A DNA stretch of 64,000 bases from a virus (IMGVR_UViG_3300021185_001174:56811-120810); one strand, 5' to 3'; positions 6,186 to 36,032 are shown, counted from the first letter of the stretch. A program made the numbers and translations. The notes: generated by a model from the letters alone, not told the origin.

Positions 6186-6213
6186 ATTATCTCCGTTATT
6201 AGTTTATAAAGTT

Positions 6214-9077: not shown

Positions 9078-9734
9078 TTAAACTACATCATCAACTGGGA
9101 AAATTTTATAGATAATATTACCAATTTCTTTTGCTATATCCATATGCTCTTTTTGAGTACCATTGGCACTTCTTAGTTCTATATAATGAATCCAAGAGCG
9201 AAGGGTTCCATTAACGTACATACGAGACTTTGTTAATCCCTCAGGTAGTACAGCCCTGGCTTGTTCTTTGGCAATTCCTGCCTCGATAGCCCAATTATAA
9301 GCTTTTTGACATCTTTCTATAATAACTTCTTGATAAGATTCCCATATATAATTAATGGACTCATCAAGGTTTTCAATAGAATTCTGTCTGTTCTTTTTAT
9401 CTTGCATTCTCGCTTCTCTTGTAACAAAACTTAAATCTTTTGTTGGGTCAGCATATCGCTGTGAGAATTCTTGGAAGGAGAAAGACCTATGGCGAAGTAT
9501 TTGTCTTGCAATGTCCCTAGTTGTATCTATCTCCATACATACACTTACCATCTCTAATGGGCTCCAGTGTTTGTGCTTAATTAAATACTTTACTAGTTTC
9601 TCTGAAGTTTCTTCATTGCTCTGATTACTAGGATTAGATACCCTAGCGCAGTAAGCGACCATCTGCAAGAGGTCGGGACTTAACTCGACCTCCGCAGGTG
9701 GCTGCGAATATGATATAAGTTTCACGTCAAACAT
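9078..9734 (-). CDS. thyX: FAD-dependent thymidylate synthase ThyX
   Basis: Makes dTMP from dUMP with methylene-tetrahydrofolate, FAD and NADPH. The family signature RHRx7S is complete: RHR at 81-83 and S91 in RHRSFSFQEFS, followed by QRY. Length (218 aa) is normal. With the dCMP deaminase at 13405 and the MazG-like gene it forms a dUMP-to-dTMP supply route. The tRNA-Ala follows immediately and the small membrane-protein gene precedes it. Confidence 0.95.
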   Translation of the reverse strand: MFDVKLISYSQPPAEVELSPDLLQMVAYCARVSNPSNQSNEETSEKLVKYLIKHKHWSPLEMVSVCMEIDTTRDIARQILRHRSFSFQEFSQRYADPTKDLSFVTREARMQDKKNRQNSIENLDESINYIWESYQEVIIERCQKAYNWAIEAGIAKEQARAVLPEGLTKSRMYVNGTLRSWIHYIELRSANGTQKEHMDIAKEIGNIIYKIFPVDDVV

Positions 9735-9926: not shown

Positions 9927-11318
9927 CTATATTTTAAATTCAGCAAACGTGTCTTTATTCTCTCTATCACCCCACGTTGCAATTGGTTTATCTGGCACAA
10001 CATCTGTGATAATGTCTTGTTGTGCACTTTCTTCTACATCAAATAATTTCATTCGGCTCCTATCAATACCGACTACAAATCTTTTATATTTGGTCGGGTC
10101 ATTATAACGATTTTTCAATTGTTTTACCATGAGTTGGCCTAATTCTTCTAGTTCCTCTGTTGATATAAGAGCAAACATAAGGTCAGCCGTAGCAGGAAGG
10201 CCGAATGATTCTGATGTGTCTTCAAGACCGACATCCGTATTACCAAATCCTGACCTGGTAGTTTGGGTAGCCGATACTATCGGAACATTAAACTCTACAG
10301 CAAGACCACGCAGTTCTTCTGCAATGGCTTTGATGTAAGAGTAACTATTTATACTTCCACCCAGCCCTTTCATACGACTTGATGAACAAATATTCAAGTA
10401 GTCAATGTATATCATATCTGGGTTAAAGTTCTTTTTCATCTTAAGTTCATTAAGAAGAGCCCTAAAGTGACCTGTATGAGCAGCACCTGTAGGGTATTCT
10501 TTGATAATAAGTTTACCGATAGATGCCTGAGCAATCTTTTGTATCTTACTATCGAAAGTTGATTTGTTAATTCTGGCAAGTTGTTCTATTGGTAAGTCCA
10601 TTAGATTAGCATCGATACGTTCAGCAATTCTTTCTTCAGCCATTTCCATGGTGATGTAAAGTACATTCTTGCCTTGTTGTAATACCGATGCCGCACAATG
10701 ACACATGAATAGAGACTTACCCACACCTGTTCCTGCCAAAGCAATGTTCAAGGTTTTATTGGGTAAGCCTCCCTTCGTAATCTTATTAAAGTAATCTAGG
10801 TCAAAGGGTGTTCTATCTTCTTTTGTGTTGTAGAAATCAAATCTTTCATCTGAGTTGTCAATGTAATCATGACCAATTGCCTGGTCGAATGATACACCGA
10901 GAGCATTAGAAAGTATTTCTGGAATAGCACCTTCTGATTGTTCAGCATCTTTGCCATCAATGATACCGATAGAATTCATAATGGCGAGATAGACTGCCCT
11001 ATCCCTACACCACTTTTCGGATTCTTTAATTAGATAATCTGTATCTATTTCTTCATGGACTTGAATAGCCTTTACCAACTGTGATGATGCATTGAGCAAA
11101 TCATCATGAGCACTTGTCTTTCTTAGTTCTAGTTCTAATACACTTGGAGTTGGTAACTTATTATGTTTTCCAACAAAAGCAGTAATTAAACTAAATACTG
11201 TTCTATGCTCACCCTCAAAGTATTCGGGTTTAATATACGGAATAACTCGTCTACAATAACTCTCGTTATTAAGTAAGTTGCTCAGTATGTGTGTCGGTAG
11301 TTGGTGTTTTATATCCAA
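9927..11318 (-). CDS. 41: Replicative DNA helicase (T4 gp41, DnaB family)
   Basis: The hexameric helicase that unwinds DNA ahead of the phage fork. A helical N-terminal domain (1-150) is followed by a RecA-like domain with Walker A AGTGVGKS (195-202), a Walker B-like DMIYIDYLN near 300 and a SATQTTRSGFG sensor-type region near 347. Length (463 aa) matches T4 gp41 (475 aa). It overlaps the upstream 117-aa gene by 50 nt in another frame, which implies coupled translation. The upstream order bS21-uvsX-117 aa-gp41 suggests one transcript from the promoter at 12967. Confidence 0.95.
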   Translation of the reverse strand: MDIKHQLPTHILSNLLNNESYCRRVIPYIKPEYFEGEHRTVFSLITAFVGKHNKLPTPSVLELELRKTSAHDDLLNASSQLVKAIQVHEEIDTDYLIKESEKWCRDRAVYLAIMNSIGIIDGKDAEQSEGAIPEILSNALGVSFDQAIGHDYIDNSDERFDFYNTKEDRTPFDLDYFNKITKGGLPNKTLNIALAGTGVGKSLFMCHCAASVLQQGKNVLYITMEMAEERIAERIDANLMDLPIEQLARINKSTFDSKIQKIAQASIGKLIIKEYPTGAAHTGHFRALLNELKMKKNFNPDMIYIDYLNICSSSRMKGLGGSINSYSYIKAIAEELRGLAVEFNVPIVSATQTTRSGFGNTDVGLEDTSESFGLPATADLMFALISTEELEELGQLMVKQLKNRYNDPTKYKRFVVGIDRSRMKLFDVEESAQQDIITDVVPDKPIATWGDRENKDTFAEFKI

Positions 11319-11623: not shown

Positions 11624-12679
11624 TTACTCTTCCTGTAAAGTGGTTTCTAAATCTATTTCTAATAAAGGCTTATGACCAATTTGATAATAAGACTTAATGA
11701 ACTTAGCAAAGTCCGTACCTGTTAAGATAGGGTCCCAGAATTCTTTAGTAAGAGTATCTTTCTGTCTTACTTTAGGCTGTACTATTTCACCTGTTGATTG
11801 GTCTACTCTAGCATACCAACCCATAGTTGGTTTAACCACATAGTTACCAGCCAAGGCAATTTCTAGTAGGCCTGAATACTGTTCGATTCCACCTTCCCAT
11901 GATACTGATACTGGAATCTTTGATTTCTCTTTTACAAATCTTGACTTCTCTACATTAATAATAAAGTCATAACCTGTAACATCAGAACCAGTTTTATTTT
12001 GTCTACGTCCTAGAATCCAAATGTTATCAGCTGAGTAGTAGATACCCGTACCGCCTGATACGATAGCTTTAGGGAAGAGACCAATCTCTTGGTAAGTATG
12101 ATTAACTGCAAGTAGTGGTACATTTTTCATAGTAAGATATGGAGTAACCATTCTGAAAAGTCCTTTCAAAGCCTTAGCCCTGGACATATCAGCAACACCT
12201 TTTTCATTTAAGGCATCTTCTAGTTCTTTCTTAGATGCAAGGTTACCAATAGAATCAATCACAATGATAACTTTATCACCACGTTCGATATTATCTAGCT
12301 GACCTACTAAATCAAACTTAAGTTGTTCCACATCTGTAATTGGTGTATGTAATACTCTATCAGTATCAATACCAAATGCCTCGAAATATGATTGAGGCGA
12401 ACCAAACTCGGAATCATAGAATAACATTACTGCATCATCGTGTTCCTTCATATAGGCACCAGCCATGAGTAGAGCAAAACTTGTCTTAAAGTGTTTACTA
12501 GGGCCAGCCAATACAGTTAGTCCTGATGTAAGACCACCATCAATATCACCCGATAAGGCGACATTTACCATAGGTACTTCTGTTGGTACCATATCTTTTT
12601 CTGTAAAGAAAATCGATTTAGATAAGACTGATGTTGTCTTAATCTTCGAATTCTTTTTTAATTTATCCATTACTGACAT
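11624..12679 (-). CDS. uvsX: UvsX recombinase (RecA-like)
   Basis: Strand-exchange protein for recombination-dependent replication, working with UvsY and gp41. Walker A is GPSKHFKTS (59-67), the UvsX-specific form. VIIVIDSIGNL near 137-147 is Walker B, and LLAVNHTYQEIG near 190 matches the sensor region. Length (351 aa) is close to T4 UvsX (391 aa). The start shares one base with the bS21 stop. Confidence 0.96.
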   Translation of the reverse strand: MSVMDKLKKNSKIKTTSVLSKSIFFTEKDMVPTEVPMVNVALSGDIDGGLTSGLTVLAGPSKHFKTSFALLMAGAYMKEHDDAVMLFYDSEFGSPQSYFEAFGIDTDRVLHTPITDVEQLKFDLVGQLDNIERGDKVIIVIDSIGNLASKKELEDALNEKGVADMSRAKALKGLFRMVTPYLTMKNVPLLAVNHTYQEIGLFPKAIVSGGTGIYYSADNIWILGRRQNKTGSDVTGYDFIINVEKSRFVKEKSKIPVSVSWEGGIEQYSGLLEIALAGNYVVKPTMGWYARVDQSTGEIVQPKVRQKDTLTKEFWDPILTGTDFAKFIKSYYQIGHKPLLEIDLETTLQEE

Positions 12680-12995: not shown

Positions 12996-13408
12996 GTGTT
13001 TTCTTCAACTCTTTTTCTTAAATTAGATGTTGAAAATCTGTGGTCTCTTTTGTTAAAGTAAAAATCTATATCTCTTTGCTTACATAGTTCTCTACCAGTA
13101 AAGTCTTTATCCCTGTATTCTTCGCCCATTATCTTAACATCTATATGATACATTGCAAGGATATCTAGTAGCTCTTCTTCTGTATTATATACTAAAATTT
13201 CATCAACATATTTAATGGCGGCTAGTTGCGCTTGGCGTTCGACAATATTTTGAATGGGTTTGTTTTTCTCTGGTCTATCTACCGATGGGTCATTTTGTAA
13301 TGCACATATTAAATAATCACATGCGGTCTTTGCTTCTCTTAACATTGCAACATGACCACTATGTAATAAGTCAAATGTGCTGCATGTAAATCCTACTCTT
13401 TTCTTCAT
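12980..13408 (-). CDS. Cytidylyltransferase-family protein (TagD/RfaE-like)
   Basis: A 142-aa single-domain HIGH-type nucleotidyltransferase. GFTCSTFDLLHSGHVAML (6-23) contains the HSGH motif, and FSTSNLRKRV near the C-terminus is the ISSTxxR-type motif. This matches glycerol-3-phosphate or sugar-phosphate cytidylyltransferases, which make CDP-activated precursors. It overlaps the dCMP deaminase stop by 4 nt. The substrate cannot be read; a role in surface or nucleotide-sugar chemistry is possible. Confidence 0.85.
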   Translation of the reverse strand: MKKRVGFTCSTFDLLHSGHVAMLREAKTACDYLICALQNDPSVDRPEKNKPIQNIVERQAQLAAIKYVDEILVYNTEEELLDILAMYHIDVKIMGEEYRDKDFTGRELCKQRDIDFYFNKRDHRFSTSNLRKRVEENTLQSK

Positions 13409-13872
13409 ATTTGTTCCAATTCTATTTTACACTTTTCTAAAAAGGGTCTTCCATAACCCACGTTAGCTTTATAATCTTCTTTATAATATACTTTTTTAAT
13501 ACCCGATTGGTGTATTAACTTAGCACAATCTATACAAGGCATGGCAGTACAGAAGATTTCGGCACCCTCTGTAGATTCATTTGACCTTGCAACTTTAGAT
13601 ATAGCATTTGCCTCTGCGTGGAGGACTTCGGGTTTTGTAGTGAGCTCATATACTGGAGTTCTATTTCCATAATCATGGATATCCTTAGTCTCACATACAT
13701 TATCCCAACCAGTAGGCATTCCATTATATCCTATAGATATAATCCTATTATCCTTTACTATAATAGAACCTACTTTTTTTCTTTTGGCATGACTTAAAGC
13801 CGCAAATGTCTCTGCGACTTCCATGAATGCTTTCTTAAATTTATTTTTCAACGTAAATAATGCCTTGCTCAT
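13405..13872 (-). CDS. cd: dCMP deaminase
   Basis: Deaminates dCMP to dUMP, feeding ThyX. HAEANAI carries the zinc-ligand His and catalytic Glu; PCIDCAK carries the two zinc cysteines. I chose the internal ATG at 13872 (MSKALFTLKNKF), giving 155 aa, because alignment to the family begins near KKAFMEVAETFA. The frame stays open up to 13944, but that adds 24 residues overlapping the nuclease gene. The chosen start still overlaps the nuclease by 32 nt, and ATG at 13824 is another option. Confidence 0.88.
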   Translation of the reverse strand: MSKALFTLKNKFKKAFMEVAETFAALSHAKRKKVGSIIVKDNRIISIGYNGMPTGWDNVCETKDIHDYGNRTPVYELTTKPEVLHAEANAISKVARSNESTEGAEIFCTAMPCIDCAKLIHQSGIKKVYYKEDYKANVGYGRPFLEKCKIELEQI

Positions 13873-14260
13873 TGAGAGCTTTACGGTTTGCCATATGGTG
13901 GTTTTCTGTTTCTTCTTTATTGCCACCATAGTATGGGACAGCATGATTGTTATTAATCATGGTTTGATTAACTGAAGTTTCTAATCCATCTATAAAGAGT
14001 TCACCTAAAATTCTACCGAACTTGCCTTTGTCGTGGGATACTAGTTGGATTTTCTTATCTTTTAAGATACTTTCTAAGAAGTATTTAGATTGTTTACCAT
14101 AAAACTTTTCTTCTAAGTCTCTGGTTCTGGATTCTGGTGTATCAATTGCCATCATTCTAACTCTTTGCTTTCTTAGCATAGTGCTGAAACCTAAATCAAT
14201 ATCTACATCGACAGTATCTCCGTCAACTACTCTGGTTATATAAACTCTGTATCTATACAT
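13841..14260 (-). CDS. Staphylococcal-nuclease-like (SNase) endonuclease, 139 aa
   Basis: RVVDGDTVDVDIDLGF (10-25), VRMMAIDTPE (34-43) and GRILGELFIDG near 82-92 are the conserved SNase-fold segments, with the acidic and arginine active-site residues in place. The family cuts DNA or RNA with Ca2+. No signal peptide is seen, so it acts in the cytoplasm or virion. It overlaps the GroES-like gene by 8 nt and the deaminase at its 3' end. Possible roles are host-DNA degradation or nucleotide scavenging. Confidence 0.87.
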   Translation of the reverse strand: MYRYRVYITRVVDGDTVDVDIDLGFSTMLRKQRVRMMAIDTPESRTRDLEEKFYGKQSKYFLESILKDKKIQLVSHDKGKFGRILGELFIDGLETSVNQTMINNNHAVPYYGGNKEETENHHMANRKALNEQGIIYVEK

Positions 14261-14767: not shown

Positions 14768-15274
14768 CTATTTATAAAATATATGATTGTCAATAGTAAC
14801 AACTTCTGTTAGATATGGTGCCCAGTAAGGTGATACAAAGTCTGCATGATACCATAGAGAGCCACTTGTAATGTCTGGCATTTTTCCAGATATAACTAAG
14901 TCTGCGATATGTAACGATTCCATCCATGTAGTTGAATCTGTAGGTTCATCCGACTTACCATCGCAGTACCAACTGAACTGACATTTATTTCTAATAGGAA
15001 CCATATTACCTTTCCAGTTCTCTCTTAATTTAGCTTGATATACTACATCACATATAGTACTAGGAAACTGTGCATCATTTGACCTATTAACTGCCACATT
15101 GGCAACTGCAACTCTTCCAGCAAATGGTTGATTGGCTGATTCAAAATAAATGTTTTGAGCTAGACAATATCTTTCTCCGTTTTCATCAGAAGCAGCAAGT
15201 GTTGGTACTAATAGAATTAAACATACTATTGCCGCAATCCATAAACTTATATTTCCGTAGTTGGGTGATTTCAT
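14768..15274 (-). CDS. Cell-wall hydrolase (SleB/CwlJ-like), likely endolysin
   Basis: Residues 36-168 match the Hydrolase_2 type: CLAQNIYFESANQPFAGR, VAVNRSNDAQFPSTICDVVYQ and CQFSWYCDG are characteristic. E44 in YFESANQ is the likely catalytic Glu. The N-terminus (about 10-28, SLWIAAIVCLILLVPTLAA) is a signal peptide or signal-anchor, so the protein would reach the periplasm without a holin pore. It probably cuts peptidoglycan at lysis. It overlaps the epimerase gene by 4 nt (ATGA). Confidence 0.85.
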   Translation of the reverse strand: MKSPNYGNISLWIAAIVCLILLVPTLAASDENGERYCLAQNIYFESANQPFAGRVAVANVAVNRSNDAQFPSTICDVVYQAKLRENWKGNMVPIRNKCQFSWYCDGKSDEPTDSTTWMESLHIADLVISGKMPDITSGSLWYHADFVSPYWAPYLTEVVTIDNHIFYK

Positions 15275-16122
15275 AATTTCTCCATTATATATTTTTGTAA
15301 AGTATTCTTTGGTTTCCAGCCTAAGTCAATTACCTTTGCTGTCTTAAGTTCTCCATTTAATCTATTACCTGCTTTCTCTGGTAGCATTTCTGGTTGAACT
15401 TTAAGATATGAAACTAAATCTAGTATTGAATGTTGTTCTGGTGAACCAATACCATAGTTATCTCCACTACCTTTAAATGCGGCAAGTATAATACCCTCTA
15501 CAATATCATCAACGTGTGTAAAGTTTCTTACTTGAACACCTGGTGATGTAACAGGTAAAGTGGTTGCACCATCTTTGACCATCTTAAGGAACTTACCAAC
15601 TACTGTTGCGTATTGTCCTTCATTGATTTCATTATCTCCATAGACATTATAGAAGTAAACTATACTGTAATCTAAGCCGAACCATTCTGAATAGTTCTTT
15701 AGTAATTCAGTATTCTGAGCTTTAGTATATGCGTATGGGGAAGCGGCTGATGTATTAGTGGCAAACTTAGTAGATGAACCAGAATAGATTACTTTGGCAT
15801 CCTGATGTTTGGCAAACTTTAGAACTTCTGGGAAGTGTCTTAGGTTATAATCTATTACTTTATCAAAGTCATTAAACGATTGTTCTACTCTTGCATATTC
15901 GCCAAAGTGAAATATATAATCAAAGGTTTGTTCTTGATGTTGTAATGCACCAAATAAGTCCATCGGAGTACCATAGAGATACCAACATCCATCGTGTCTA
16001 TTTGACATCTGACTTGAGTGTCCGTTATCTATTGATACTACTTGATGACCTTCTGATAATAATCTTTTAATTAGATTAGAACCAATAAATCCTTCTCCGC
16101 CTGTTACTAGTATTTTGCTCAT
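15271..16122 (-). CDS. NAD-dependent sugar epimerase/dehydratase (extended SDR)
   Basis: MSKILVTGGEGFIGSNLIKR is the Rossmann GxxGxxG motif. The catalytic region is SGSSTKF around 115 with YAYTKAQ (YxxxK) near 130, as in UDP-glucose 4-epimerase-like enzymes. At 283 aa it is a little short. It has its own early promoter (16147-16175). It lies beside UDP-glucose dehydrogenase, so it may act on UDP-glucuronate or a related nucleotide sugar. Confidence 0.87.
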   Translation of the reverse strand: MSKILVTGGEGFIGSNLIKRLLSEGHQVVSIDNGHSSQMSNRHDGCWYLYGTPMDLFGALQHQEQTFDYIFHFGEYARVEQSFNDFDKVIDYNLRHFPEVLKFAKHQDAKVIYSGSSTKFATNTSAASPYAYTKAQNTELLKNYSEWFGLDYSIVYFYNVYGDNEINEGQYATVVGKFLKMVKDGATTLPVTSPGVQVRNFTHVDDIVEGIILAAFKGSGDNYGIGSPEQHSILDLVSYLKVQPEMLPEKAGNRLNGELKTAKVIDLGWKPKNTLQKYIMEKL

Positions 16123-16181: not shown

Positions 16182-17369
16182 TTAATTATTATTGTATATA
16201 TCTCTGGTGTATACTTTTGACTCAATGATATCATCAGACATTCTATTGGTCACGATTATGTCAGATAGCTCGTTGAACTTATCTATGTCATTTTCTATAA
16301 CACAACCTAAAAACTTATCATCTTCAATCATAGGCTCATGAATAATAACTTTGACTCCAGCCTTGGTAAGTCTATCAACAACACCTTGTATGGCTGAACA
16401 CCTATAATTATCTGAACCAGATTTCATGGCTAGTCTATAGATTCCTACTACTGATACATTATCTTTCTGTTGTATCATTCTTGCAATCCAATCTTTTCTG
16501 TTCTCATTCGCGTATACAATACCTTGGATAATCTTGGTAGGAATATGATGCTTTCTAAAATTGGCAAGTAGTTGTTTTGTATCTTTAGGAAAACAGTATC
16601 CGCCATAACCAAATGATGGGTTACTATAACCTCTACCGATACGTGAATCTCCAGTAACACCTTCTATAATAGAATAGGCGTTCATATTATTTGCCTCTGC
16701 GTACATATCTAATTCATTAAAAAATGATACTCTCATCGCGAGGTATGTATTGGCAAAGAGTTTAATTGATTCTGCCTCTTTAGTTCCACATAGATTAACT
16801 GGTGGCGATGGGAAGTTTGGTATAATACATTCATTAATAAGTTTGGCAAACGATTCACCATTGTAACCAATATCACCTACTACAATTCTTTCTGGTCGTA
16901 GACAGTCTCTTAACGCTGTGCCTTCTCTTAAGAATTCTGGAGAGAATATAACTGACTTCGTATACTTCTCTTGCATATCATCAATGAATCCTACAGGTAT
17001 AGTTGACTTAACTACTATTGTGGTTGAACTTTTATCCCAGTCAGCATTATATTCTACTGCATCTCTAATACAACCTTCAACAGTATCTGTGTTAAAGTAG
17101 TTTGTTGCTTCATCATAATCAGTTGGTGTTGCGATGACCACCCAGTCAGCATCTGAATATGCAGTCTTCTTATCCATGGTCGCCTTAAGTGATAACTTGC
17201 CTTCAGCTAGTTCATCCGATATATCTTTATCTTCAATGGTTGATACGCCAAGGTTAATTGAAGCTACTCTTAACTTATCAATGTCTAAAATTGTTACATC
17301 ATGTTTCTTGGCAAACATTACTGCGTTAGCCATACCAACGTAACCCGAACCTACTACTGTTATTTTCAT
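16182..17369 (-). CDS. UDP-glucose 6-dehydrogenase-like nucleotide-sugar dehydrogenase
   Basis: ITVVGSGYVGMANAVMFA (3-20) is the NAD-binding site. SPEFLREGTALRDCLRPERI is the substrate-loop signature, and SFGYGGYCFPKDTKQL carries the catalytic cysteine. The three-domain length (395 aa) is normal. It oxidises UDP-glucose (or a similar sugar) to the uronic acid with two NAD. It overlaps the primase-like gene by 4 nt and stands upstream of the epimerase, so both may supply a modified UDP-sugar. Confidence 0.92.
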   Translation of the reverse strand: MKITVVGSGYVGMANAVMFAKKHDVTILDIDKLRVASINLGVSTIEDKDISDELAEGKLSLKATMDKKTAYSDADWVVIATPTDYDEATNYFNTDTVEGCIRDAVEYNADWDKSSTTIVVKSTIPVGFIDDMQEKYTKSVIFSPEFLREGTALRDCLRPERIVVGDIGYNGESFAKLINECIIPNFPSPPVNLCGTKEAESIKLFANTYLAMRVSFFNELDMYAEANNMNAYSIIEGVTGDSRIGRGYSNPSFGYGGYCFPKDTKQLLANFRKHHIPTKIIQGIVYANENRKDWIARMIQQKDNVSVVGIYRLAMKSGSDNYRCSAIQGVVDRLTKAGVKVIIHEPMIEDDKFLGCVIENDIDKFNELSDIIVTNRMSDDIIESKVYTRDIYNNN

Positions 17370-18292
17370 AAACTATTCCTATGTACAAATTCTAAGGCTC
17401 TTTCTGCCTCTTTATCTAATGGTCTTTTATTATACCAATTGCCTGTATCTAAATCTAATTCTCTACATAAGTAGGCGATTTCTTTAGAGGTAATTGGATA
17501 CTTGTTACTTATAGCGTTACCTGCTAGTGCCACCATAATCTGATACATTTTATGATACCAGCCACTGCCTGTAATCGTTCTATATTCTTGTTCTAATTTC
17601 TTTGGAAAAAACGGACAGTCTTTATAACCAGTCCATGATACCTTAGTATTAGTTAGTGAAGATTTCATGTGAGCCATCATGGCCTCTTGCATCTTCTTAG
17701 GTAATTTATCAAAGAATGAATTCCCACTTTTTTCTATATACTCATGGCGAGACATAATATCATGGGGAGATATTGGCTCACCTTGTTTAGTAAAGATAAA
17801 GTTATGCGCATTAGCATACTTGCCAGGGATGTAATACATTCTTGATAAATCTTTGGTCTGGATATCACCCATTTCACCAAGTTCTTTGTTGAGGGCATAC
17901 CAGAAGTGTTTAATATTGTCTTTGTTAACAAACTCTGTAAGGGGAAAGACAAGTCTAAACTTTGGCAAGTCTTTTGTGGATGAAGCAGTAGAGTAACAGA
18001 TATAATGATAATCTTTACATTTCTTGTCCAAGAACTCTTGTAAGTCCTCGGTGCAATCATCTACATCTATGGCACACCAGCCACCCCAACCTTGTACATT
18101 ATCATTCTTTCTTGTAGTACCAGCAGAATAAAAAGCAGGAGACATTAGTTCTGCAGACTTTTTATCTTTTCTGGGTTTCTCGGAAAGTCGATATAGTATT
18201 GTTTCAAAGTCTTTGAATGTGGGTAAATCTATACTCTTGTTAGTCTGAACATCAAAGAGTGATTCAAATAGTGTGCCTGATACTTTATCCAT
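17366..18292 (-). CDS. Archaeo-eukaryotic primase-like (PrimPol-type) protein, 308 aa
   Basis: Residues 65-157 show the AEP primase pattern: AIDVDD (74-79) as the hDhD motif, CYSTASST (99-106) with PKFRLVFPL (110-118) as the second motif, and TKDLSRMYYIPGKY (147-160) as the third. The C-terminus (about 210-308) is helical, like the PriCT-type tails of phage primases. It would lay down RNA or DNA primers. A TOPRIM primase like T4 gp61 is not seen in this window, so this may be a replacement or an extra enzyme. Assignment is by motif reading only. Confidence 0.65.
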   Translation of the reverse strand: MDKVSGTLFESLFDVQTNKSIDLPTFKDFETILYRLSEKPRKDKKSAELMSPAFYSAGTTRKNDNVQGWGGWCAIDVDDCTEDLQEFLDKKCKDYHYICYSTASSTKDLPKFRLVFPLTEFVNKDNIKHFWYALNKELGEMGDIQTKDLSRMYYIPGKYANAHNFIFTKQGEPISPHDIMSRHEYIEKSGNSFFDKLPKKMQEAMMAHMKSSLTNTKVSWTGYKDCPFFPKKLEQEYRTITGSGWYHKMYQIMVALAGNAISNKYPITSKEIAYLCRELDLDTGNWYNKRPLDKEAERALEFVHRNSL

Positions 18293-18301: not shown

Positions 18302-18330
18302 ATTATACTACATTTTAATCTGATTGTAAA
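18302..18330 (-). promoter_or_regulatory. Early-type promoter of the primase-like/UDP-sugar dehydrogenase genes
   Basis: Minus-strand TTTACA (18325-18330), 17 nt, TATAAT (18302-18307). Confidence 0.8.
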
Positions 18331-19226
18331 GGGGTTTTTAAAATTAATTTTAAATTTTTATAGTCGGTGAAAAATCTTCGTTTGTGTTGTAACTTCCAAC
18401 CCTTATGTGAACCTTCTACTAACTCAACAACTCTAAAGTTCTTAGGCCAGACCTTAACAAATCTCTCATAGAGTTTGCGTCTCTTCTCTTTACTTTCCCA
18501 GTGGTTCATATTACCACCTTTTTGAGTCGCAGTACCAGGAGCATCAAATAGGATATGAGAGAAAGAAATTGTACACCACTTGTTTTCTAAGGCTGTGAGT
18601 GTATAATGCCAGTCCTCTACACCTGATAGATTTTCTGGCCAAGTAACATCAGCTTCATTCTTAATGAGAACACAGCTGTATGCGAGTTGGTTTACTTTAA
18701 CTGGATATCTTTTACTAAAAGCAAATGCTGGACTTGTAAGGCCTGATATGGCAACATTAGAGAATAGACCAATTGTCTTTTCTACCACGGCCAAGGCATT
18801 GATACCTTTAACCACAACATTCTTATCATTCATTCTGATTCTAAACTTTTTAATATCATCATCCATTTGCCAGTGATATGTATCACCTTGGGCTTTAGAG
18901 TATTCTTTGATAAAGTTTCTGACATATGAAATGCCTCTATCGTTAGCTTCAATATTAACTAATATATCTTTATCGTGATATTTGGAATACTCTTCATAAT
19001 CTTGAGGTTCAACAAACAACTTATATGGTATATTTTCTTCTAATAATGTTTTAGGAGTAAATGCACAATCTGCTCTTCCCTTACTTGGGACATATATAGG
19101 ATGAGATACATCTGTATAATTTTCATGTTCTGATATAAGGTCAGAAACATATGTTACTATATCAAAGTCAGCTTCATCACTAAATAAAGGATTGTGCTCT
19201 ACTATATATTTGTTTAAGTTTGTCAT
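18315..19226 (-). CDS. TET/JBP-associated-type glycosyltransferase (TAGT-like), copy A
   Basis: HPIYVPSKGRADCAFTPKTL (42-61), FVEPQDYEEY (71-80), GISYVRNFI and WQMDDDIKKF (119-128) follow the pattern I know for the TAGT glycosyltransferase family, a GT-A fold with a DxD-like DDD motif (122-124). Such enzymes are associated with glycosylation of modified DNA bases in phages. The end contains SHKGWKLQHKRRFF, a basic tail. It shares one base with the upstream 119-aa gene and has a paralogue two genes up. The acceptor here is not known. Confidence 0.75.
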   Translation of the reverse strand: MTNLNKYIVEHNPLFSDEADFDIVTYVSDLISEHENYTDVSHPIYVPSKGRADCAFTPKTLLEENIPYKLFVEPQDYEEYSKYHDKDILVNIEANDRGISYVRNFIKEYSKAQGDTYHWQMDDDIKKFRIRMNDKNVVVKGINALAVVEKTIGLFSNVAISGLTSPAFAFSKRYPVKVNQLAYSCVLIKNEADVTWPENLSGVEDWHYTLTALENKWCTISFSHILFDAPGTATQKGGNMNHWESKEKRRKLYERFVKVWPKNFRVVELVEGSHKGWKLQHKRRFFTDYKNLKLILKTPLQSD

Positions 19227-19585
19227 TATTCTACTAGAATATGTCCTTCGTCAATTACTTCGTCAACATCTGGGTTGCCATCAATTTGGTCTTCATGCAT
19301 CCATCTAAGAAGCGAGTTCTTACTTTTGTCTGCAGGTGGATACCAAACACCTTTTGTTTTAGGTGTTACTGTTTGGCCAATAAGTTCTGCAAATGCCAAT
19401 AGGTCTTCTTCATTACGGAATCTTACCTTAATACATTTCCATGCCTCATTCTGCTTCTGGTCAAACTCTGGCATTGAATCCCACTGATGTGGTGTCTCTG
19501 CCTCTTCTTCTCCTGATAATACAAATAGACTTTCACCTTCGTAATTGATTTGTCTATCTTTGGTTGAATTATTTTTACTTGCCAT
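19226..19585 (-). CDS. Conserved hypothetical between two TAGT-like genes, 119 aa
   Basis: The core WKCIKVRFRNEEDLLAFAEL then GQTVTPKTKGVWYPP is a pattern I have seen in phage genes near DNA-modification or ParB-like genes, with no known activity. Both ends share a base with TAGT-like neighbours (TAATG), so the three form one translation unit and probably one pathway. The N-terminus is acidic and disordered in look. Confidence 0.7.
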   Translation of the reverse strand: MASKNNSTKDRQINYEGESLFVLSGEEEAETPHQWDSMPEFDQKQNEAWKCIKVRFRNEEDLLAFAELIGQTVTPKTKGVWYPPADKSKNSLLRWMHEDQIDGNPDVDEVIDEGHILVE

Positions 19586-20484
19586 TATACTGCCTCCTTC
19601 TTTAATCTGACTAGTTTAAGACCTTTATTGTCTGTTACCTTAGGTATATTTAGGTCTGGTTTGAGAGTTGGTTTTTCTTTTTGGAATATAGAGTAATCAA
19701 TGTGGTGATGCCACCTACCCCACTTCCAAGTAACTTTAACACAATCTGGATGTTGTCGTCTTAATGATTCTGCAAACTCTCTTCTGTTATCAAAATCATC
19801 ATTACCTTTACGATTGCCTTGGTCACCTGTTTGGTCAATGTTATATAACTCTTCCGTATTACCACCTTTCATTGTCATAGTAGTAATCTTACCACAATTA
19901 AAGTTGTTAAATAGGAAAGTATGATAACCAGCCTTCATAATTCTTAGAGATAAATCTGTATCTTCATTGAATCGGCCTCTCCACGCAAACTCTGGATAGA
20001 TATCATTCGCCAATAAGATACATGAATATACCCTAGTGTTATGATAATATGGAGGTCGCTTGGTAGTCGCAGGTAGGAAATAACTATAGTTCATACCAGA
20101 CATTTTAACATTTTCATATCGGTCGGTAAACTCTTCACACGCAGTGAAACAAGTACCATCTGTTACCTTAATCTTAGCATTCTTATGGAGTCTATACATA
20201 TGTTGTATATTATCATCAAGAATCCAATGTCTTTCAGCACCAGTAGAACATGCATGTTCCCAAACAAAGTTACGGACTGGTATAGAACCTAGACCTAGAT
20301 TAGTAAATGGAGTAACTAGAATATTGGCTGGGTCAATGACTGCCGCATAATCGTTATACTCTTGAGGTTCAATTACTATAGTATAAGGTGTGCCGTTTGC
20401 TTCTAGTGTCTTAACTGTTAGTCTAGTGTCAGCACGACCCTTTGATATAATATAGATTGGATATTTTGGTTGATTACCTGCCAT
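19585..20484 (-). CDS. TET/JBP-associated-type glycosyltransferase (TAGT-like), copy B
   Basis: YPIYIISKGRADTRLTVKTL (8-27), VIEPQEYNDY (37-46), SIPVRNFVWEHA and WILDDNIQHMYRL (87-99) parallel copy A, including the DDN metal motif. RFNEDTDLSLRIMKAG near 180 looks like the catalytic acidic loop of GT-A enzymes. The two copies are too divergent for a recent duplication and probably have different acceptors or donors. It shares a base with the MazG-like gene stop. Confidence 0.78.
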   Translation of the reverse strand: MAGNQPKYPIYIISKGRADTRLTVKTLEANGTPYTIVIEPQEYNDYAAVIDPANILVTPFTNLGLGSIPVRNFVWEHACSTGAERHWILDDNIQHMYRLHKNAKIKVTDGTCFTACEEFTDRYENVKMSGMNYSYFLPATTKRPPYYHNTRVYSCILLANDIYPEFAWRGRFNEDTDLSLRIMKAGYHTFLFNNFNCGKITTMTMKGGNTEELYNIDQTGDQGNRKGNDDFDNRREFAESLRRQHPDCVKVTWKWGRWHHHIDYSIFQKEKPTLKPDLNIPKVTDNKGLKLVRLKKEAV

Positions 20485-20792
20485 TATTCCTCCTTGATAA
20501 AGATACCATCTACCATTTTACCTTTTCGGTCTTTGATATCATTATACGCCACTTCTAAACATCTATCGATAGTGAGATTATTTCTCATAGCAATATTAAT
20601 TAATACTACCATACAATCTCCAATATCATCTGCGACATCTTTACCCTTACATACATTATCAGAAAGTTCACCGACTTCCTGAATCAGTTTACATACTTGG
20701 TCCTTATCTGTGGCTCCATCAATAAGATTTCTGTCTTGATGCCACTGGCCAATTTTCTGGACCAATTCACCTGTTCGAGCACTTGTATTCAT
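20484..20792 (-). CDS. mazG: MazG-like nucleotide pyrophosphohydrolase, 102 aa
   Basis: The helical MazG-like core has LIQEVGELSDNV (ExxE) and DVADDIGDCMVVL (ExxD-type) metal sites. It hydrolyses NTPs or dNTPs to monophosphates; in marine phages it is proposed to affect (p)ppGpp or to recycle nucleotides. It shares a base with the Sm-like gene and with copy B. It could instead remove an unwanted dNTP if the phage DNA is base-modified; that is inference. Confidence 0.85.
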   Translation of the reverse strand: MNTSARTGELVQKIGQWHQDRNLIDGATDKDQVCKLIQEVGELSDNVCKGKDVADDIGDCMVVLINIAMRNNLTIDRCLEVAYNDIKDRKGKMVDGIFIKEE

Positions 20793-21142: not shown

Positions 21143-23650
21143 TTATCCAAAAAAGTCCTCTAAACTTGAAGTTTCTTCGGTATTCCATCCAATCGCCTTG
21201 AAGATAGGTTCTATAGGGTCAAGGAATGTTTTTTGAAATTGTGTCTCGTAATCTATATAGGAATCCAATTCAAACTCTTTTGGGAGATACTGCATGAAGC
21301 CGATTACATTTTCTTTGATAGGATTGGGTGACTTGAGATATATAAATTTAATCTTCTCGCCATTCTTAATTGGCTGATACTTTTTGGTCAGACTTTTATT
21401 CTTTAACATTCTGTTATGGAGTAGAGCGGCACGAACATGCATTGGACAACCCTTCTTGTAAATGGTCTGCATATTTGAATACTCTGTAACATTACTAACG
21501 CCACGAGGGAATGCAATATCATGGGCTGGTAATGTTTGGAAGTAATCCTTGAATTGTAAGATAGCCTGTTGATTATCTTTCTCGGAACCCTTCATAATTA
21601 CTTTGAACAATTCTTTAAGAGCATCTCGGCAAGGGGCAGGAGTTGAAGATTTAATAGCCTCGATACCCATGATTTTGAGTTTAGGTTCTTTGTATCGAAC
21701 ACCCTCGTTATCATGCACGTTTAGGATATATCTTTTCTTGGCTGTCCATATGGCACGGTCTGCAATGGCCTCTCTTTTCATAACCATACGATTATCGATG
21801 CCACCCATATGGTCAAACAGTTCTTGATATGCCTGACTAAGGACTGGTTCTAGTTTTTCACTAGCAACTTTATCAAGAAAGTCAACCGGATTGGATGGGT
21901 TAACCTGTTCGACCAATGGGCCAAGATTAACATAGAGCGAGTCTGTGTCAATGGCAATGATATAATCGGTATCTGTGTTCATGACTTTATTTAGGTATTT
22001 ATTTAAAGCGACTTCTGCCCAACGGATAGTAAGCTGACCAGATAATGTAATTGCCTCTGCAATACGTTGGTCAAAGAAACGGAAGTACTTGTTACCCATA
22101 GCGCCATAGAGTGAGTTAAGTAGAATTTTAATAGCCATCTGTTGATTTTCTGCCACGGATATTTTACGTTCTATATCATAGAGTTTTTGTTTATCACCAG
22201 GAACTACCTTCTGTAATTCTTTCTGAGCCTCAATCATCTGTTTCTTGATTATGACACGTTCACTATATAAATCATCTACTAGGGTAGGCATCATGCCTTT
22301 CTTATCACTACTAAAGCATTGACCATTACCGCCTACAGCATGACCATCTCGGTCAAAGGTATACCCATCAAGTATCTTATCGATATTGATAGGAAGGACT
22401 TGGCCGTTTAAGATAGTTTCGGGCGACATATTATATTGCATAATGATTGACGGATAGAGAGAGTTAAGGTCAAACGATACCACGTGTTCGTGTAAACCAA
22501 CTACTGGGTCTTTTACATATCCGCCAGGGTAATTAGTCTTAATCTTATTCTCGGAGAATGGCATTGCAATCTTTCGGTCATTGAGATATCTGTAAATAAT
22601 AGTATCCCAGATTGCAGTAACTCCGAACGTGTCCGAATAGTTAACGCCACCTTTATATGCCATAGTCAACATAAGAGTGATAAGGCCCATCTTGTCTTCT
22701 AGTCTGTCAACCAACTCAACATCTTTGATATTATAATCAATAAACTTTTGGTGGTCATTTTTGTATAGACTATGGAGTGAGCCGTATTCTTCATATGACA
22801 GTTTCTTCTCGCCTAGAATAACGTGAGCAATATGATTAAGAGCATAAGATTCTTGGGCTGTGTAAGTATACTTCTGAAATAGTTCCATGTAATCTGCATG
22901 ACCAATACCCTTGATATCAAAGATAGTCTGTTCTCTGTTCATTTTACGAGCAGTTCTTCTGTCTACCATACCCCAAGGAGAAAGCCTTTTAGGAGCATCA
23001 TCACCAAGCATTCTGATAATACGATTTACAATGTATGGTATATCAAAGTACATAGTATTCCAGCCAGTAATAACATCAGGACATTGACTAGGTAGTGACC
23101 AGTGATTAATAAAATTATGTAATAGTGTAAGTTCTGATTCACATTTTACATAGACTACGCGGTGTGATTTCATATAAGATTGGTCTGTATCGAAATCTCC
23201 AAGACCCCACACATAATAAGTATTGTCAATATTGTTCTTCATCGCAATGGATATGATAGGGTGTTCTGCTTGTTCTGGTTCTGGGAAACCATCATCGGAA
23301 GCAACCTCGATATCAATAGAGGTTACGTTGATTAGGTTACGATTAAATTCTATCTCGCCAGGGAACTGGTCGTTGATAAACTGGGATATGTATCTGTCAT
23401 TGCCATAGATTTCTCTACCAGCAGTATGCTTATTGATATCCATCCAGTCTTTAGCCTCACGCATAGAATCGAACTTGATAGGTGCACATGGATTACCATC
23501 GAGCGAAGTCCAATCTCCCTGCGGAGTATTTACGAATAAGGTGGGTTTGTATTTGATGCGCTTTGCAACTTTAGTGCCATTTTCATAGCCACGATAAAGT
23601 AACATATTCGCATATCGAGTTACATTTGTATAAAAATTCATATAGTCCAA
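21143..23650 (-). CDS. 43: DNA polymerase, family B (T4 gp43)
   Basis: The replicative polymerase with proofreading exonuclease. Exo I is SIDIEVAS near residue 113. Polymerase motif A is FDLNSLYPSII near 395, motif B includes KILLNSLYGAMGNK near 510, and motif C is IAIDTDSLYV near 570. The C-terminal residues EDFFG resemble a clamp-binding peptide. Length (835 aa) is slightly below T4 gp43 (898 aa). It is a single-gene unit with its own early promoter (23672-23700), downstream of a strong terminator. Confidence 0.97.
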   Translation of the reverse strand: MDYMNFYTNVTRYANMLLYRGYENGTKVAKRIKYKPTLFVNTPQGDWTSLDGNPCAPIKFDSMREAKDWMDINKHTAGREIYGNDRYISQFINDQFPGEIEFNRNLINVTSIDIEVASDDGFPEPEQAEHPIISIAMKNNIDNTYYVWGLGDFDTDQSYMKSHRVVYVKCESELTLLHNFINHWSLPSQCPDVITGWNTMYFDIPYIVNRIIRMLGDDAPKRLSPWGMVDRRTARKMNREQTIFDIKGIGHADYMELFQKYTYTAQESYALNHIAHVILGEKKLSYEEYGSLHSLYKNDHQKFIDYNIKDVELVDRLEDKMGLITLMLTMAYKGGVNYSDTFGVTAIWDTIIYRYLNDRKIAMPFSENKIKTNYPGGYVKDPVVGLHEHVVSFDLNSLYPSIIMQYNMSPETILNGQVLPINIDKILDGYTFDRDGHAVGGNGQCFSSDKKGMMPTLVDDLYSERVIIKKQMIEAQKELQKVVPGDKQKLYDIERKISVAENQQMAIKILLNSLYGAMGNKYFRFFDQRIAEAITLSGQLTIRWAEVALNKYLNKVMNTDTDYIIAIDTDSLYVNLGPLVEQVNPSNPVDFLDKVASEKLEPVLSQAYQELFDHMGGIDNRMVMKREAIADRAIWTAKKRYILNVHDNEGVRYKEPKLKIMGIEAIKSSTPAPCRDALKELFKVIMKGSEKDNQQAILQFKDYFQTLPAHDIAFPRGVSNVTEYSNMQTIYKKGCPMHVRAALLHNRMLKNKSLTKKYQPIKNGEKIKFIYLKSPNPIKENVIGFMQYLPKEFELDSYIDYETQFQKTFLDPIEPIFKAIGWNTEETSSLEDFFG

Positions 23651-29449: not shown

Positions 29450-31606
29450 TCAAGCCACTGCCCCTCCGAATTTAGTAAGAAGCACCTTGTTGGTCTTTTT
29501 GGACTTAGAGTACTTTTTAAAAGCATTTCTAATCTGAGCATCTGAGGCTTCTGTTTGAACTTCGAAATCCTCTTCTTCGGTATTAAGGTTTTTACCACCT
29601 TTGACCATGTAGTAAGTATCATATCCGAAAACATTTGATACTTCAACACACTTGTTTTTATTATACTCTTTGTTCTTTTCCTTTCTGTATTCTTCACTAC
29701 CTGTTCTAGCTGATTCTGCCCAGTATGCATTATTGATTCTATACTTCCATTCACTATTATCATCGGCCATGAAGAATCCTAGATTGTTAGTTTTATACTG
29801 TTTCTTAATATTGTTAAGTAGGACAGTTGTTAGACCAGTTGCTGAGGTTAATCCAGATGTGATAGACTTACCTTGAACAATTAATCTTATTTCATTAGTC
29901 TTGTTTCTGTAATCTCTATTACCATGAACTTGGATTCTATTAGCATCTCCATCGGTGAAAGTTAAGAAGTTCATTTTTTCAATGTTGTTCTTAGCTCTGA
30001 ATCTTTTAATGATATCATGCATAACAACTAGAGCTTGATTAAGAGGTGTTGAACCCCAGTTCTCTGAATGAGCTTTAGGTATGTCTCTTTGTTCTGTAGT
30101 CCTTAAGTATAAGAACTGAGTCGCCTTTATAAAGTCAGCTTTCTTCATATCTGAAGATACTAGGAGTGGCATTCTTAGGTCATCCATATCTAGGTCACCT
30201 GTTTGATATTGTCTAGCTTGAGACTCTCCGTACCAACCGCCGGACGTGAATGCGTATACTTCATAAGGGATGTTGACTGCCTTACAGAACATAACAGTAT
30301 GAAGGATTTGGTCCATTACATATTTCATTGACGTTGACATTGACCCAGAATAGTCTACCAACATAACCATGCCGTGTGATTTGGCATTTGGTAACTTAGT
30401 AGCTTTGAGAAAGATATCATCGTTTGTCTTGTAAGACCATAACTTGTTTACGTTGATGTTTCCAGTCTTAGCTTCAGTAGCCCTAGACCATTGTGTCGCC
30501 GCTTTTTTCATTTCGAATTCTCTAACGGCCGGTTGAACATTCTTTTTAAGTTGTTTCATATATGAAGCGTAACCAGTTGAAATAGTTTCTCTCCAAGATT
30601 GATTACCCCATGAACTATCCTTGTAATTTTCTTCCCATCTTTTTATTTCTGTTTCTCTCTCTTTAGAAAGTTCTTTGAAATCTACTATGGATGTTTCGAT
30701 ATTGTCTGCAGAGGTTTGACTGATGATGATAGGCTGATTACCATTTCTATCTGTTTCTATTAGTTCTTTTTCTTTTGACCTATAGATACTATCGGTAATA
30801 GAAACATCAGAACCAGCTGTGTGTACAGGTTCTTTAGCCGTTACTGTTTCAGTGTCGTCTGACTCTTCACCCTCTTCTGATTCCTCAGATGATTGATTAC
30901 CTGACTTACTTTGAGTTGACTCGTCGTCTGACTCTTCTTTCTCATAATCATCATGTCCTGACGGCATATCTTCTTGATTGTTATTCTCTTCTGACTCTTG
31001 GTTTTCTGAATCTTCTGGTTCAGGTTCTGGCTGTTGAATTAGCTCTGGTGTATTGTCTTGAGTAAACTTTAGAATGTCTTTGACTAACTGAACAACTTCA
31101 TCAAATGTTTGAGTAGTTTTAGCTCTAGTTAGGTAAACCATTTCTTCTGAATTGAATGGTACTTCTATAAGTGAACCGAGTTTGGTCTTAAGATTAATCT
31201 TATCAATAAGTTTGACTTGGTCATAATCTACATCGTCAAGTGGTCCGAAGAATTCTCTCTCCAATAACTTCTTGTAACCTTTATTAAAAGAGTTGACAAG
31301 CCCTGGATATCTTGATTGGATTTTTCTCTCAATCCTAGCATCTTCTATCACATTGATATAAGTTCTTGGACATCCTTCTAACTTCTCTGGACTATCATGC
31401 CAACCTTCATATGGGGTTTCTATTGCATGTCCAACCTCATGACCAATTAGAAGGTCATAAACATCTTTGCCCATATCTTTCCACAATGGAAGACCTAGGG
31501 TTCTGTTCTTGATATCAAACCAGGCTGTATTGAAGTTACCATGTCTAATGGTAATGTTCTCTTTAGCCAAGAGTTTTGGTAGGAGGGATTTTTCATAATT
31601 CATCAT
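29450..31606 (-). CDS. Zinc-metallopeptidase-like/VWA protein (CobT-like partner of the MoxR ATPase)
   Basis: The N-terminal domain has HEVGH (56-60) and, 30 residues on, NVIEDARIE (85-93), a gluzincin-like HExxH...E arrangement. A very acidic Ser/Glu/Asp-rich linker covers about 190-255. The C-terminal half contains a VWA domain with MIDAS motif DYSGSMS (418-424), TFTDGD near 525 and SENWGSTPLNQAL near 490. This order resembles CobT-type proteins. With the ATPase downstream it forms a MoxR-VWA pair. Peptidase activity is inference from the motif. Confidence 0.82.
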   Translation of the reverse strand: MMNYEKSLLPKLLAKENITIRHGNFNTAWFDIKNRTLGLPLWKDMGKDVYDLLIGHEVGHAIETPYEGWHDSPEKLEGCPRTYINVIEDARIERKIQSRYPGLVNSFNKGYKKLLEREFFGPLDDVDYDQVKLIDKINLKTKLGSLIEVPFNSEEMVYLTRAKTTQTFDEVVQLVKDILKFTQDNTPELIQQPEPEPEDSENQESEENNNQEDMPSGHDDYEKEESDDESTQSKSGNQSSEESEEGEESDDTETVTAKEPVHTAGSDVSITDSIYRSKEKELIETDRNGNQPIIISQTSADNIETSIVDFKELSKERETEIKRWEENYKDSSWGNQSWRETISTGYASYMKQLKKNVQPAVREFEMKKAATQWSRATEAKTGNINVNKLWSYKTNDDIFLKATKLPNAKSHGMVMLVDYSGSMSTSMKYVMDQILHTVMFCKAVNIPYEVYAFTSGGWYGESQARQYQTGDLDMDDLRMPLLVSSDMKKADFIKATQFLYLRTTEQRDIPKAHSENWGSTPLNQALVVMHDIIKRFRAKNNIEKMNFLTFTDGDANRIQVHGNRDYRNKTNEIRLIVQGKSITSGLTSATGLTTVLLNNIKKQYKTNNLGFFMADDNSEWKYRINNAYWAESARTGSEEYRKEKNKEYNKNKCVEVSNVFGYDTYYMVKGGKNLNTEEEDFEVQTEASDAQIRNAFKKYSKSKKTNKVLLTKFGGAVA

Positions 31607-31637
31607 AATATAGGTTTCTCTTTTAATTTACTAGTAT

Positions 31638-31666
31638 ATTATACTACGCATTATTGAGAATGTAAA
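31638..31666 (-). promoter_or_regulatory. Early-type promoter of the metallopeptidase-VWA gene
   Basis: Minus-strand TTTACA (31661-31666), 17 nt, TATAAT (31638-31643). Confidence 0.8.
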
Positions 31667-31702
31667 GTGTTTTTTTCATTTTTTTTAAAGTTTTTTCTCA
31701 AC

Positions 31703-31731
31703 TGTAACATAAATGTAACACATTTGTAACA
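31703..31731 (+). repeat. Three TGTAACA boxes at exact 11-nt spacing
   Basis: TGTAACA lies at 31703-31709, 31714-31720 and 31725-31731 on the plus strand. They sit 37-65 nt upstream of the -35 of the metallopeptidase-VWA promoter. A two-copy version in the opposite orientation lies at 8954-8971. They could be an operator for a DNA-binding protein on one face of the helix. Confidence 0.4.
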
Positions 31732-31737
31732 AAAGCT

Positions 31738-31947
31738 TTAATCAAACTGTAATTCCATCTGACTAGGGCGAGATGTCCTCTTAAATAATAAACGGCCATC
31801 TGGTAATTCAATCAGAGTAAATACATCGCCTTCTTCAAAGGGAACCTTATCCATAGTCAATTGATAATTAGGTTCCAGAGGACTATCTTTATCAGTAAAC
31901 ATTAGGCCGTTCTCATTCATCTCAATTAAATAATCTACATATAACAT
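31738..31947 (-). CDS. Hypothetical protein, 69 aa
   Basis: A small beta-rich acidic protein (MLYVDYLIEMNENGLMFTDK then FEEGDVFTLIELPDGRLLFK). No family is recognised. It follows tRNA-Arg by 20 nt and both are probably read from the early promoter at 32070. Confidence 0.62.
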   Translation of the reverse strand: MLYVDYLIEMNENGLMFTDKDSPLEPNYQLTMDKVPFEEGDVFTLIELPDGRLLFKRTSRPSQMELQFD

Positions 31948-31967
31948 TGGTATTTCCTTCTTTTGTT

Positions 31968-32044
31968 TGGCCCGCCCTTCAGGACTTGAACCTGAAACCT
32001 ACAGCTTAGAAGGCTGTTGCTCTATCCAGTTGAGCTAAGAGCGG
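31968..32044 (-). tRNA. tRNA-Arg (UCU)
   Basis: A cloverleaf on the minus strand: acceptor CCGCTCT with AGGGCGG (one G-U), D arm GCTC/GAGC, anticodon stem ACAGC/GCTGT around CTTCTAA (anticodon TCT), T arm TCAGG/CCTGA, discriminator G and encoded CCA. It reads AGA codons, expected to be frequent in this AT-rich genome. Confidence 0.92.
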
Positions 32045-32069
32045 ATAATTTTCTAATTTCTAAGAGTAT

Positions 32070-32098
32070 ATTATACTAGGCTTTGCACCTGCTGTAAA
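32070..32098 (-). promoter_or_regulatory. Early-type promoter of tRNA-Arg and the 69-aa gene
   Basis: Minus-strand TTTACA (32093-32098), 17 nt, TATAAT (32070-32075). Confidence 0.78.
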
Positions 32099-32143
32099 CA
32101 ACTAATTTCAGTTTTTTTAGATTATTTTGTTATATGTATATAA

Positions 32144-34917: not shown

Positions 34918-34920
34918 ATA

Positions 34921-35484: not shown

Positions 35485-35508
35485 AATTATTTCTCCAATA
35501 ATAGTATT

Positions 35509-35537
35509 ATTATACTACAAAATCGGTTCAATGTAAA
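35509..35537 (-). promoter_or_regulatory. Early-type promoter of gp55-gp47-gp46
   Basis: Minus-strand TTTACA (35532-35537), 17 nt, TATAAT (35509-35514). Confidence 0.8.
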
Positions 35538-35583
35538 GTGTTTTCTTTAAATAAAATTAATTTCATTTTTTTTCATTTTTCCC

Positions 35584-35612
35584 TTTACAAATGCCGAAAA
35601 GTGTAGTATAAT
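35584..35612 (+). promoter_or_regulatory. Plus-strand early-type promoter, facing against all genes
   Basis: TTTACA (35584-35589), 17 nt, TATAAT (35607-35612), with GTAG before the -10 exactly as at the minus-strand sites. Transcription would start near 35619 and run antisense into the Sm-like gene and uvsW. A small hairpin TCTCC-GGG-GGAGA lies at 35619-35631. No plus-strand gene follows. Confidence 0.7.
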
Positions 35613-35649
35613 ATATTATCTCCGGGGGAGACAGGGGTATACTATAAAT

Positions 35650-36030: not shown

Positions 36031-36032
36031 AC

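Follow-up and report, generated by a model that had tools for sequence, protein, structure and literature searches.

A candidate DNA hypermodification locus with two TAGT glycosyltransferases and a predicted partner domain in a marine T4-like phage

What might two related glycosyltransferases that enclose a gene for a 119-aa protein do in the replication region of a marine T4-like phage? The window that we analyzed is a 64,000-nucleotide stretch (64 kb) of the 120,810-base virus record of this phage. The features of the locus and its landmarks, in window coordinates, are the following.

21143..23650, minus strand: DNA polymerase at the T4 gene 43 position, named from position and sequence, with the gene order of T4/T6 beside the clamp-loader and clamp genes
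20484..20792, minus strand: MazG-like NTP pyrophosphohydrolase (phrog_715, E 1e-34; Pfam MazG below cut-off, E 0.0028)
19585..20484, minus strand: TAGT-A, 299 aa, the first glycosyltransferase (PF20691, Pfam E 2.4e-43)
19226..19585, minus strand: putative 119-aa TAGT partner domain ("N domain"), free-standing (alignments; TAGT adjacency)
18315..19226, minus strand: TAGT-B, 303 aa, in the variable second-transferase slot (PF20691, Pfam E 4.2e-24; GT-A fold model)
18302..18330, minus strand: promoter-like site TTTACA-17-TATAAT (consensus match only)
17366..18292, minus strand: primase-like protein, 308 aa (phrog_9765 DNA primase, E 1.3e-48)
16182..17369, minus strand: UDP-glucose 6-dehydrogenase, UGDH (Pfam UDPG_MGDP_dh N, central and C; PDB 3phl UGDH, E 2.7e-123)
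15271..16122, minus strand: NAD-dependent nucleotide-sugar epimerase (Pfam Epimerase, E 5.1e-35; nearest PDB entries are 4-epimerases)
13405..13944, minus strand: dCMP deaminase (phrog_174, E 3.4e-51)
11624..12679, minus strand: UvsX recombinase, the downstream landmark (Pfam T4_UVSX_C, E 1.1e-12)
9927..11318, minus strand: gp41-type replicative helicase, a further landmark (Pfam DnaB_C, E 2.3e-18)
9078..9734, minus strand: ThyX thymidylate synthase (Pfam Thy1, E 1.7e-45)

In the order of transcription, the gene 43 DNA polymerase is followed by a 95-aa ORF, MazG, TAGT-A, the 119-aa protein and TAGT-B. At the MazG/TAGT-A, TAGT-A/119-aa and 119-aa/TAGT-B junctions (AATAATGGCA, TATAATGGCA and AATAATGACA), the TAA stop overlaps the following ATG, and MazG overlaps TAGT-A by one base. 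An earlier note on this DNA had described a three-gene operon with one-base TAATG junctions, preceded by MazG, and both descriptions are accurate. Behind TAGT-B and the promoter-like site, which likely marks the start of the next operon as judged from its consensus match, lie the primase-like gene, UGDH and the epimerase. UGDH and the epimerase are thus both present in the next operon, where the note had placed them, but it did not mention the primase-like gene that intervenes. A cell-wall hydrolase gene (window positions 14768-15274; Hydrolase_2, E 1.5e-23) overlaps the epimerase stop, within the replication region. Elsewhere in the same genome (G000:C1, about 29712-36163; L004:10713-17164), reading by eye revealed a 614-aa ORF resembling an adenylate cyclase, with repeat-rich curlin-like and CsgG-like ORFs behind it, similar ORFs being known from pelagiphages (PMC9599517).

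Both flanking proteins matched the TAGT family in a Pfam profile search, with PF20691 bit scores of 148.9 (TAGT-A) and 86.1 (TAGT-B) against a curated cut-off of 27.5 bits, and a search of the whole 120,810-base record (150 and 87.2 bits) found no other TAGT. Both also matched phrog_842, "beta-glucosyl-HMC-alpha-glucosyltransferase." With PF20691 scores far above the cut-off and the phrog_842 matches, the TAGT likeness is not due to chance. The TET/JBP-associated-type motif pattern previously read in the two sequences, IY(I/V)xSKGRAD...EPQ(D/E)Y...DD(D/N), is present in both proteins (YIISKGRADTR and YVPSKGRADCA, EPQEY and EPQDY, LDDN and MDDD) and near-invariant among their relatives. The catalytic motifs are complete in both; those of TAGT-B are MDDD, ED and GGN, with the invariant residues D122, D123, D205, G237 and G238, and the DxD-like, ED and GG positions of TAGT-A were placed by alignment alone. 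The structure model of TAGT-B (pLDDT 89.9, pTM 0.88) has a GT-A fold, and in searches with this model (Foldseek/VIA) the PDB neighbors were GT-A transferases and TAGT models ranked first in the viral library. PDB sequence profile searches with the TAGTs and the 119-aa protein gave no credible match. Profile matches, fold and a gene order shared with T6 ggt all support assigning both proteins to the TAGTs. TAGT-A and TAGT-B share 34% identity and have a separate profile each, thus representing two subfamilies. The nearest relatives of TAGT-A are partner-TAGT fusions encoded by phages of Aeromonas, Vibrio, Tenacibaculum and Pectobacterium, and its identity to the proteins of Aeh1, 65, PTm1, POP12 and Kuja is 36-43%. 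TAGTs reportedly received their name in a 2013 computational paper, and we know of no TAGT of the partner-bearing group that has been assayed.

The 119-aa gene had no good Pfam or PHROG match. Its product carries the motif W..MPEF...F...eD...Fa.l..Q..T.kTKsiWyP, and tblastn found weak relatives directly before the TAGTs of Aeromonas, Pectobacterium and Vibrio phages; the annotated genes at these sites encode single fusion proteins, whose N-terminal ~100 residues align with the 119-aa protein. We scanned 2.9 million viral contigs with the partner domain and with TAGT-A. Among the best 80 loci listed for the partner domain, a TAGT lay within 1 kb in all 74 with room to judge, and among the best 80 listed for TAGT-A, the partner domain was present at 73 of 77 (3 fused, 70 adjacent). 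In longer versions, a ParB-like domain precedes the partner (L054, L064, L100, L224 and L254, by eye); Pfam called ParB_N in L254 and L152 and not in L064 or L224. This adjacency, together with the fusions to TAGT and ParB, indicates that the 119-aa gene encodes a dedicated TAGT partner domain. The gene had rightly been called conserved, and it is more informative than was claimed, its role as TAGT partner having been missed. The structure model of the 119-aa protein (pLDDT 71.9, pTM 0.39), with a lone helix at 59-69 and zero strands, was too weak to assign a fold. The domain may have been noticed before.

The position of the locus bears on its target. The gene order in T6 is 43 - imm - 42 (dCMP hydroxymethylase) - ggt (TAGT) - uvsX - 40 - 41, and in T4, beta-gt occupies the place of ggt between gene 43 and uvsX. 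The TAGT locus described here also sits between gene 43 and uvsX/41, without gene 42. T6 ggt scored above the PF20691 cut-off (E 1e-8), and the T6 beta-glucosyl-HMC-alpha-glucosyltransferase puts a second glucose on glucosyl-hmC (PMC13216743). In a single contig (L256:6173-9361), a 1062-aa ORF joins TAGT-A, a UDG-superfamily domain and a DNA polymerase of family A that includes an exonuclease, with the partner gene at 5908-6189; a GTG in the linker might serve as a start codon, so that a stop codon may have been lost. The T4-like loci L115-L118, which are without UGDH and epimerase, carry a Mom-family gene (PF25680, E 3.8e-52; e.g., L116:2183-2983) around TAGT-A and TAGT-B, as well as a weakly methylase-like gene near the two. 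In pelagiphages, a TAGT lies beside hypermodification genes near the DNA polymerase (PMC9599517). A TAGT-A scan of 84,980 bacterial and archaeal species genomes returned 53 loci, of which 43 had the partner and 21 a terminase or portal neighbor, compared to at least 600 stretches in the viral TAGT/partner scan (590 relatives among the matches listed), indicating a mostly viral gene pair rather than a cell-surface glycan gene. The proposal of a DNA hypermodification locus is thus strengthened by its context, that is, by the gene 43-uvsX slot, the fusions to ParB and DNA polymerase and the Mom and methylase-like neighbors in sister loci, and it is from this context that we infer DNA to be the likely target.

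If DNA is modified, an acceptor base has to be considered. A TS-family enzyme (PF00303; gene 42) was found neither in the 120.8-kb record, which may miss some kilobases, nor, with one exception, in 25 other virus records that carry the partner or a TAGT, of which some span 100-178 kb, while the same profile found gp42 in the controls T4 (E 3.9e-17) and T6 (E 1.7e-16). The record also gave no match to alpha-GT and beta-GT (PF11440, PF09198), for which the T6/T4 controls were positive, nor to 2OG-FeII_Oxy_3; the Tet_JBP profile had no match in the record or in 12 relatives and was silent in the control genomes too. As the record and 24 of these 25 others gave no TS-family match, we see no route to an acceptor. 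This extends to the whole record what had been reported for the window, namely, that no oxygenase or hydroxymethylase is seen. Searching the rest of the genome for such genes, as had been advised, thus yielded a controlled negative for PF00303 and, for Tet_JBP, an empty result to be read with its silent controls. ThyX was the only thymidylate-forming enzyme found in the record, and there was no evidence for it as a hidden hydroxymethylase. A C5-methyltransferase was ruled out as the general acceptor maker, being present in 2 of 31 records. The TS-family gene of phage Kuja has the uracil-type Asn in place of the Asp of gp42 and would encode a thymidylate synthase or an hmdUMP synthase. Krischvirus SAP has glucosylated methyl-deoxycytidine without a recognizable hydroxymethylase or transferase gene (PMC13390438).

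The missing acceptor-base enzyme would also suit TAGTs that glycosylate virion proteins of the capsid or tail, with the partner recognizing the protein substrate. Many phages and prophages outside the T4 group have partner and TAGT next to their terminase, portal and head genes, a position compatible with a target other than DNA, and the nearest solved folds of TAGT-B include the peptide/glycan GT-A transferases SunS, GalNAc-T2 and COLGALT1. However, likeness in GT-A fold does not reveal the acceptor, and T6 ggt, which belongs to PF20691, has DNA as its substrate. As the gene 43/uvsX slot, the partner-ParB fusion, the one TAGT-DNA polymerase fusion and Mom beside TAGT pairs also argue against a virion-protein target, we regard it as quite improbable. 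Partner and TAGT were also seen beside terminase in cultured Erwinia, Pantoea, Chryseobacterium and Acidobacteriaceae KBS 96, at what are probable prophages (L274, L275, L303, L304 and L305).

Given DNA as the likely target, the presence of two different transferases had suggested either a two-step sugar or two base targets. TAGT-A and TAGT-B form a single head-to-tail chain in three contigs (L378-L380), partner-TAGT-A fusions occur in Aeh1, POP12, PTm1, 65 and 1.076.O, and partner-TAGT-B fusions occur in L128 and L129, so that each pairing of the three components exists as one chain somewhere. In L152, TAGT-B, ParB_N and the partner domain form a single chain adjoining TAGT-A.

The second transferase was also found to be exchangeable among close relatives. 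In comparison with L014/L015, identity is 84-99% for the polymerase, MazG, TAGT-A, partner, primase and UGDH (UGDH, 94-96%) but only 52% for TAGT-B; compared to L016/L110, TAGT-B is 50% and UGDH 56-57% identical, whereas the remaining genes except the epimerase are 85-93% identical. These two patterns show that TAGT-B and UGDH alleles move independently, thus ruling out that the two are swapped as a unit. L082 and L091 share 98% DNA identity over the 9,073 and 2,526 bases flanking one differing stretch; there, one phage has TAGT-B with a small ORF, whereas the other has a GT4-family transferase. From these comparisons, we read swapping in the TAGT-B slot as a probable diversification of the outer sugar, with the inner step kept fixed.

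Fusion of TAGT-A to TAGT-B, a core that stays constant and a second transferase that can be exchanged favor two steps on one target, and we favor, on sequence grounds, TAGT-A and TAGT-B as two TRANSFERASES of a single system. Action in parallel on two bases or positions, instead of one after the other on a single decoration, retains a small chance: the two belong to distinct subfamilies, each with complete catalytic motifs, and some loci carry TAGT-A without TAGT-B. Parallel action accords less well with the A-B fusions, with the one partner gene that the two share, with a GT4 enzyme that replaces TAGT-B alone while TAGT-A and partner stay, and with the T2/T6 TAGT, which adds the outer sugar (PMC13216743). 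Some loci hold further candidate enzymes. In L255 (2902-4563), TAGT-A has a C-terminal extension that reads, by eye, like a SAM methyltransferase (DLGCGMGYTT) and is followed by an epimerase, and in L218 (9106-10499), the TAGT is followed by two more candidate transferases, with weak matches to GT29 and GT8.

Two sugar steps raise the question of the donor. UGDH is complete, with three domains and an intact catalytic Cys motif, GGYCFPKD, of the form GGxCxPKD. The epimerase is a short SDR with the active-site motifs SGSST and YAYTK, and its nearest relatives in the PDB are 4-epimerases. UDP-xylose synthases (UXS) have an active-site Glu after the TS motif; at the aligned place, the epimerase has SGSSTKFA, apparently without the Glu expected of UXS. 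UGDH and epimerase were both present in 18 of the 21 dereplicated T4-like TAGT-A loci with enough downstream sequence, in varying gene orders, such as TAGT-A > epimerase > TAGT-B > dehydrogenase (L017, L131 and L142). Among annotated phages, the epimerase of Kuja is the closest and its UGDH nearly the closest to ours; epimerase homologues were found in 245 phage records, and the top-ranking one, Kuja, is also among the 24 TAGT records and has UGDH adjacent. This association makes it rather unlikely that UGDH and epimerase stand outside the system, serving a host surface polysaccharide or the nucleotide-sugar pool while the TAGTs use host UDP-glucose, even though the two genes form a separate predicted operon behind the primase-like gene, many phages with homologues of either show no TAGT match, and most non-T4 partner and TAGT loci are without them nearby. 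Other sugar genes were seen at single loci. In L252 (7900-9497), partner and TAGT-A are closely followed by a KdsA-like protein of the DAHP synthase family and a CMP-sugar-type cytidylyltransferase, and the donor there could be a CMP-ketosugar. An RGP-family (UDP-arabinopyranose mutase-like) protein follows the TAGT in L168 (8369-9897). In L020 (535-1746), a 403-aa epimerase, tested with the Epimerase profile, directly precedes TAGT-B; its N-terminus, we presume, resembles UDP-sulfoquinovose synthases.

Taken together, the reading that we consider reasonably probable is that of a phage DNA hypermodification locus, in which TAGT-A and its partner add a first sugar after replication and TAGT-B a second one, probably derived from UDP-glucuronate. 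TAGT-A with the 119-aa partner would attach its sugar to a modified or reactive base of the phage DNA, and TAGT-B would then add the outer sugar. UGDH would convert host UDP-glucose to UDP-glucuronate, which the epimerase would reshape, 4-epimerization being more likely than decarboxylation, and the unusual donor that results would most likely be used by TAGT-B. Thus decorated, the phage DNA would be shielded from host nucleases, and exchange of the outer transferase and of UGDH among close relatives could serve to outpace enzymes that recognize one sugar. In this scheme, we infer the DNA substrate, the order of steps, the sugar used by each enzyme and the protection.

A broader idea, which we put forward with considerable doubt, is that partner and TAGT-A, with or without ParB, might suffice by themselves to glycosylate DNA in hundreds of phages and prophages. 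The acceptor might lie outside the known hydroxymethyl routes, made by an unrecognized oxidizing enzyme or offered directly by an ordinary base, e.g., through an exocyclic amine, and the decoration might then be extended by an outer transferase that is interchangeable and by sugars that the phage makes. Among 753 glycosyltransferase-bearing phage genomes, 288 have a TAGT without alpha- or beta-GT and hence potentially novel transferases, according to a 2026 paper (PMC13216743). The partner domain, the ParB and A-B fusions, the donor-sugar genes, the natural swap of the outer transferase and the culturable phages and prophages provide a handle on such TAGT-only phages. The absence of a known acceptor-making enzyme in most of them points to a base modification route not yet described, as does the chemistry of Krischvirus SAP (PMC13390438). 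The TAGT/partner system would also bear on the escape of phages from restriction and DNA-glycosylase defenses.

Known systems share parts of this locus. Bacillus phage SP-15 encodes UGDH, and its DNA base bears phosphoglucuronate and glucose (PMC5977210); in contrast to the locus described here, it has a dihydroxypentyl-uracil acceptor, an hmdUMP synthase and a teichoic-acid-like cluster, with no TAGT or partner shown there. The RB69-type arabinosyl-cytosine systems are likewise T4-like, with genes for sugar nucleotides and a pair of transferases that are presumed to work sequentially (PMC13390438), but they use a TS-family 5-hydroxy-dCMP synthase, whereas no TS-family gene was found here. Vibrio phage Kuja (Ackermannviridae) has two tandem TAGTs with N-terminal partner-like extensions and UGDH and epimerase genes adjacent to each other; unlike here, these lie ~60 kb from the TAGTs, both TAGTs are of type A, and a TS-family gene is present. 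The fused proteins of Aeh1, 65, phiAS5, PTm1, POP12 and 1.076.O contain the same two domains, with 36-44% identity in the TAGT part, in one chain, while here the genes are separate, the partner lies downstream of TAGT-A, and there is a second TAGT. T6 combines a single TAGT with gene 42 and alpha-GT, whereas the present locus has two TAGTs, a partner and UGDH/epimerase, without gene 42 or alpha/beta-GT. T2/T6 ggt nevertheless resembles our TAGTs in that it is likewise a PF20691 member, lies between gene 43 and uvsX, and has the E..Y, DDD, ED and GG positions by profile alignment.
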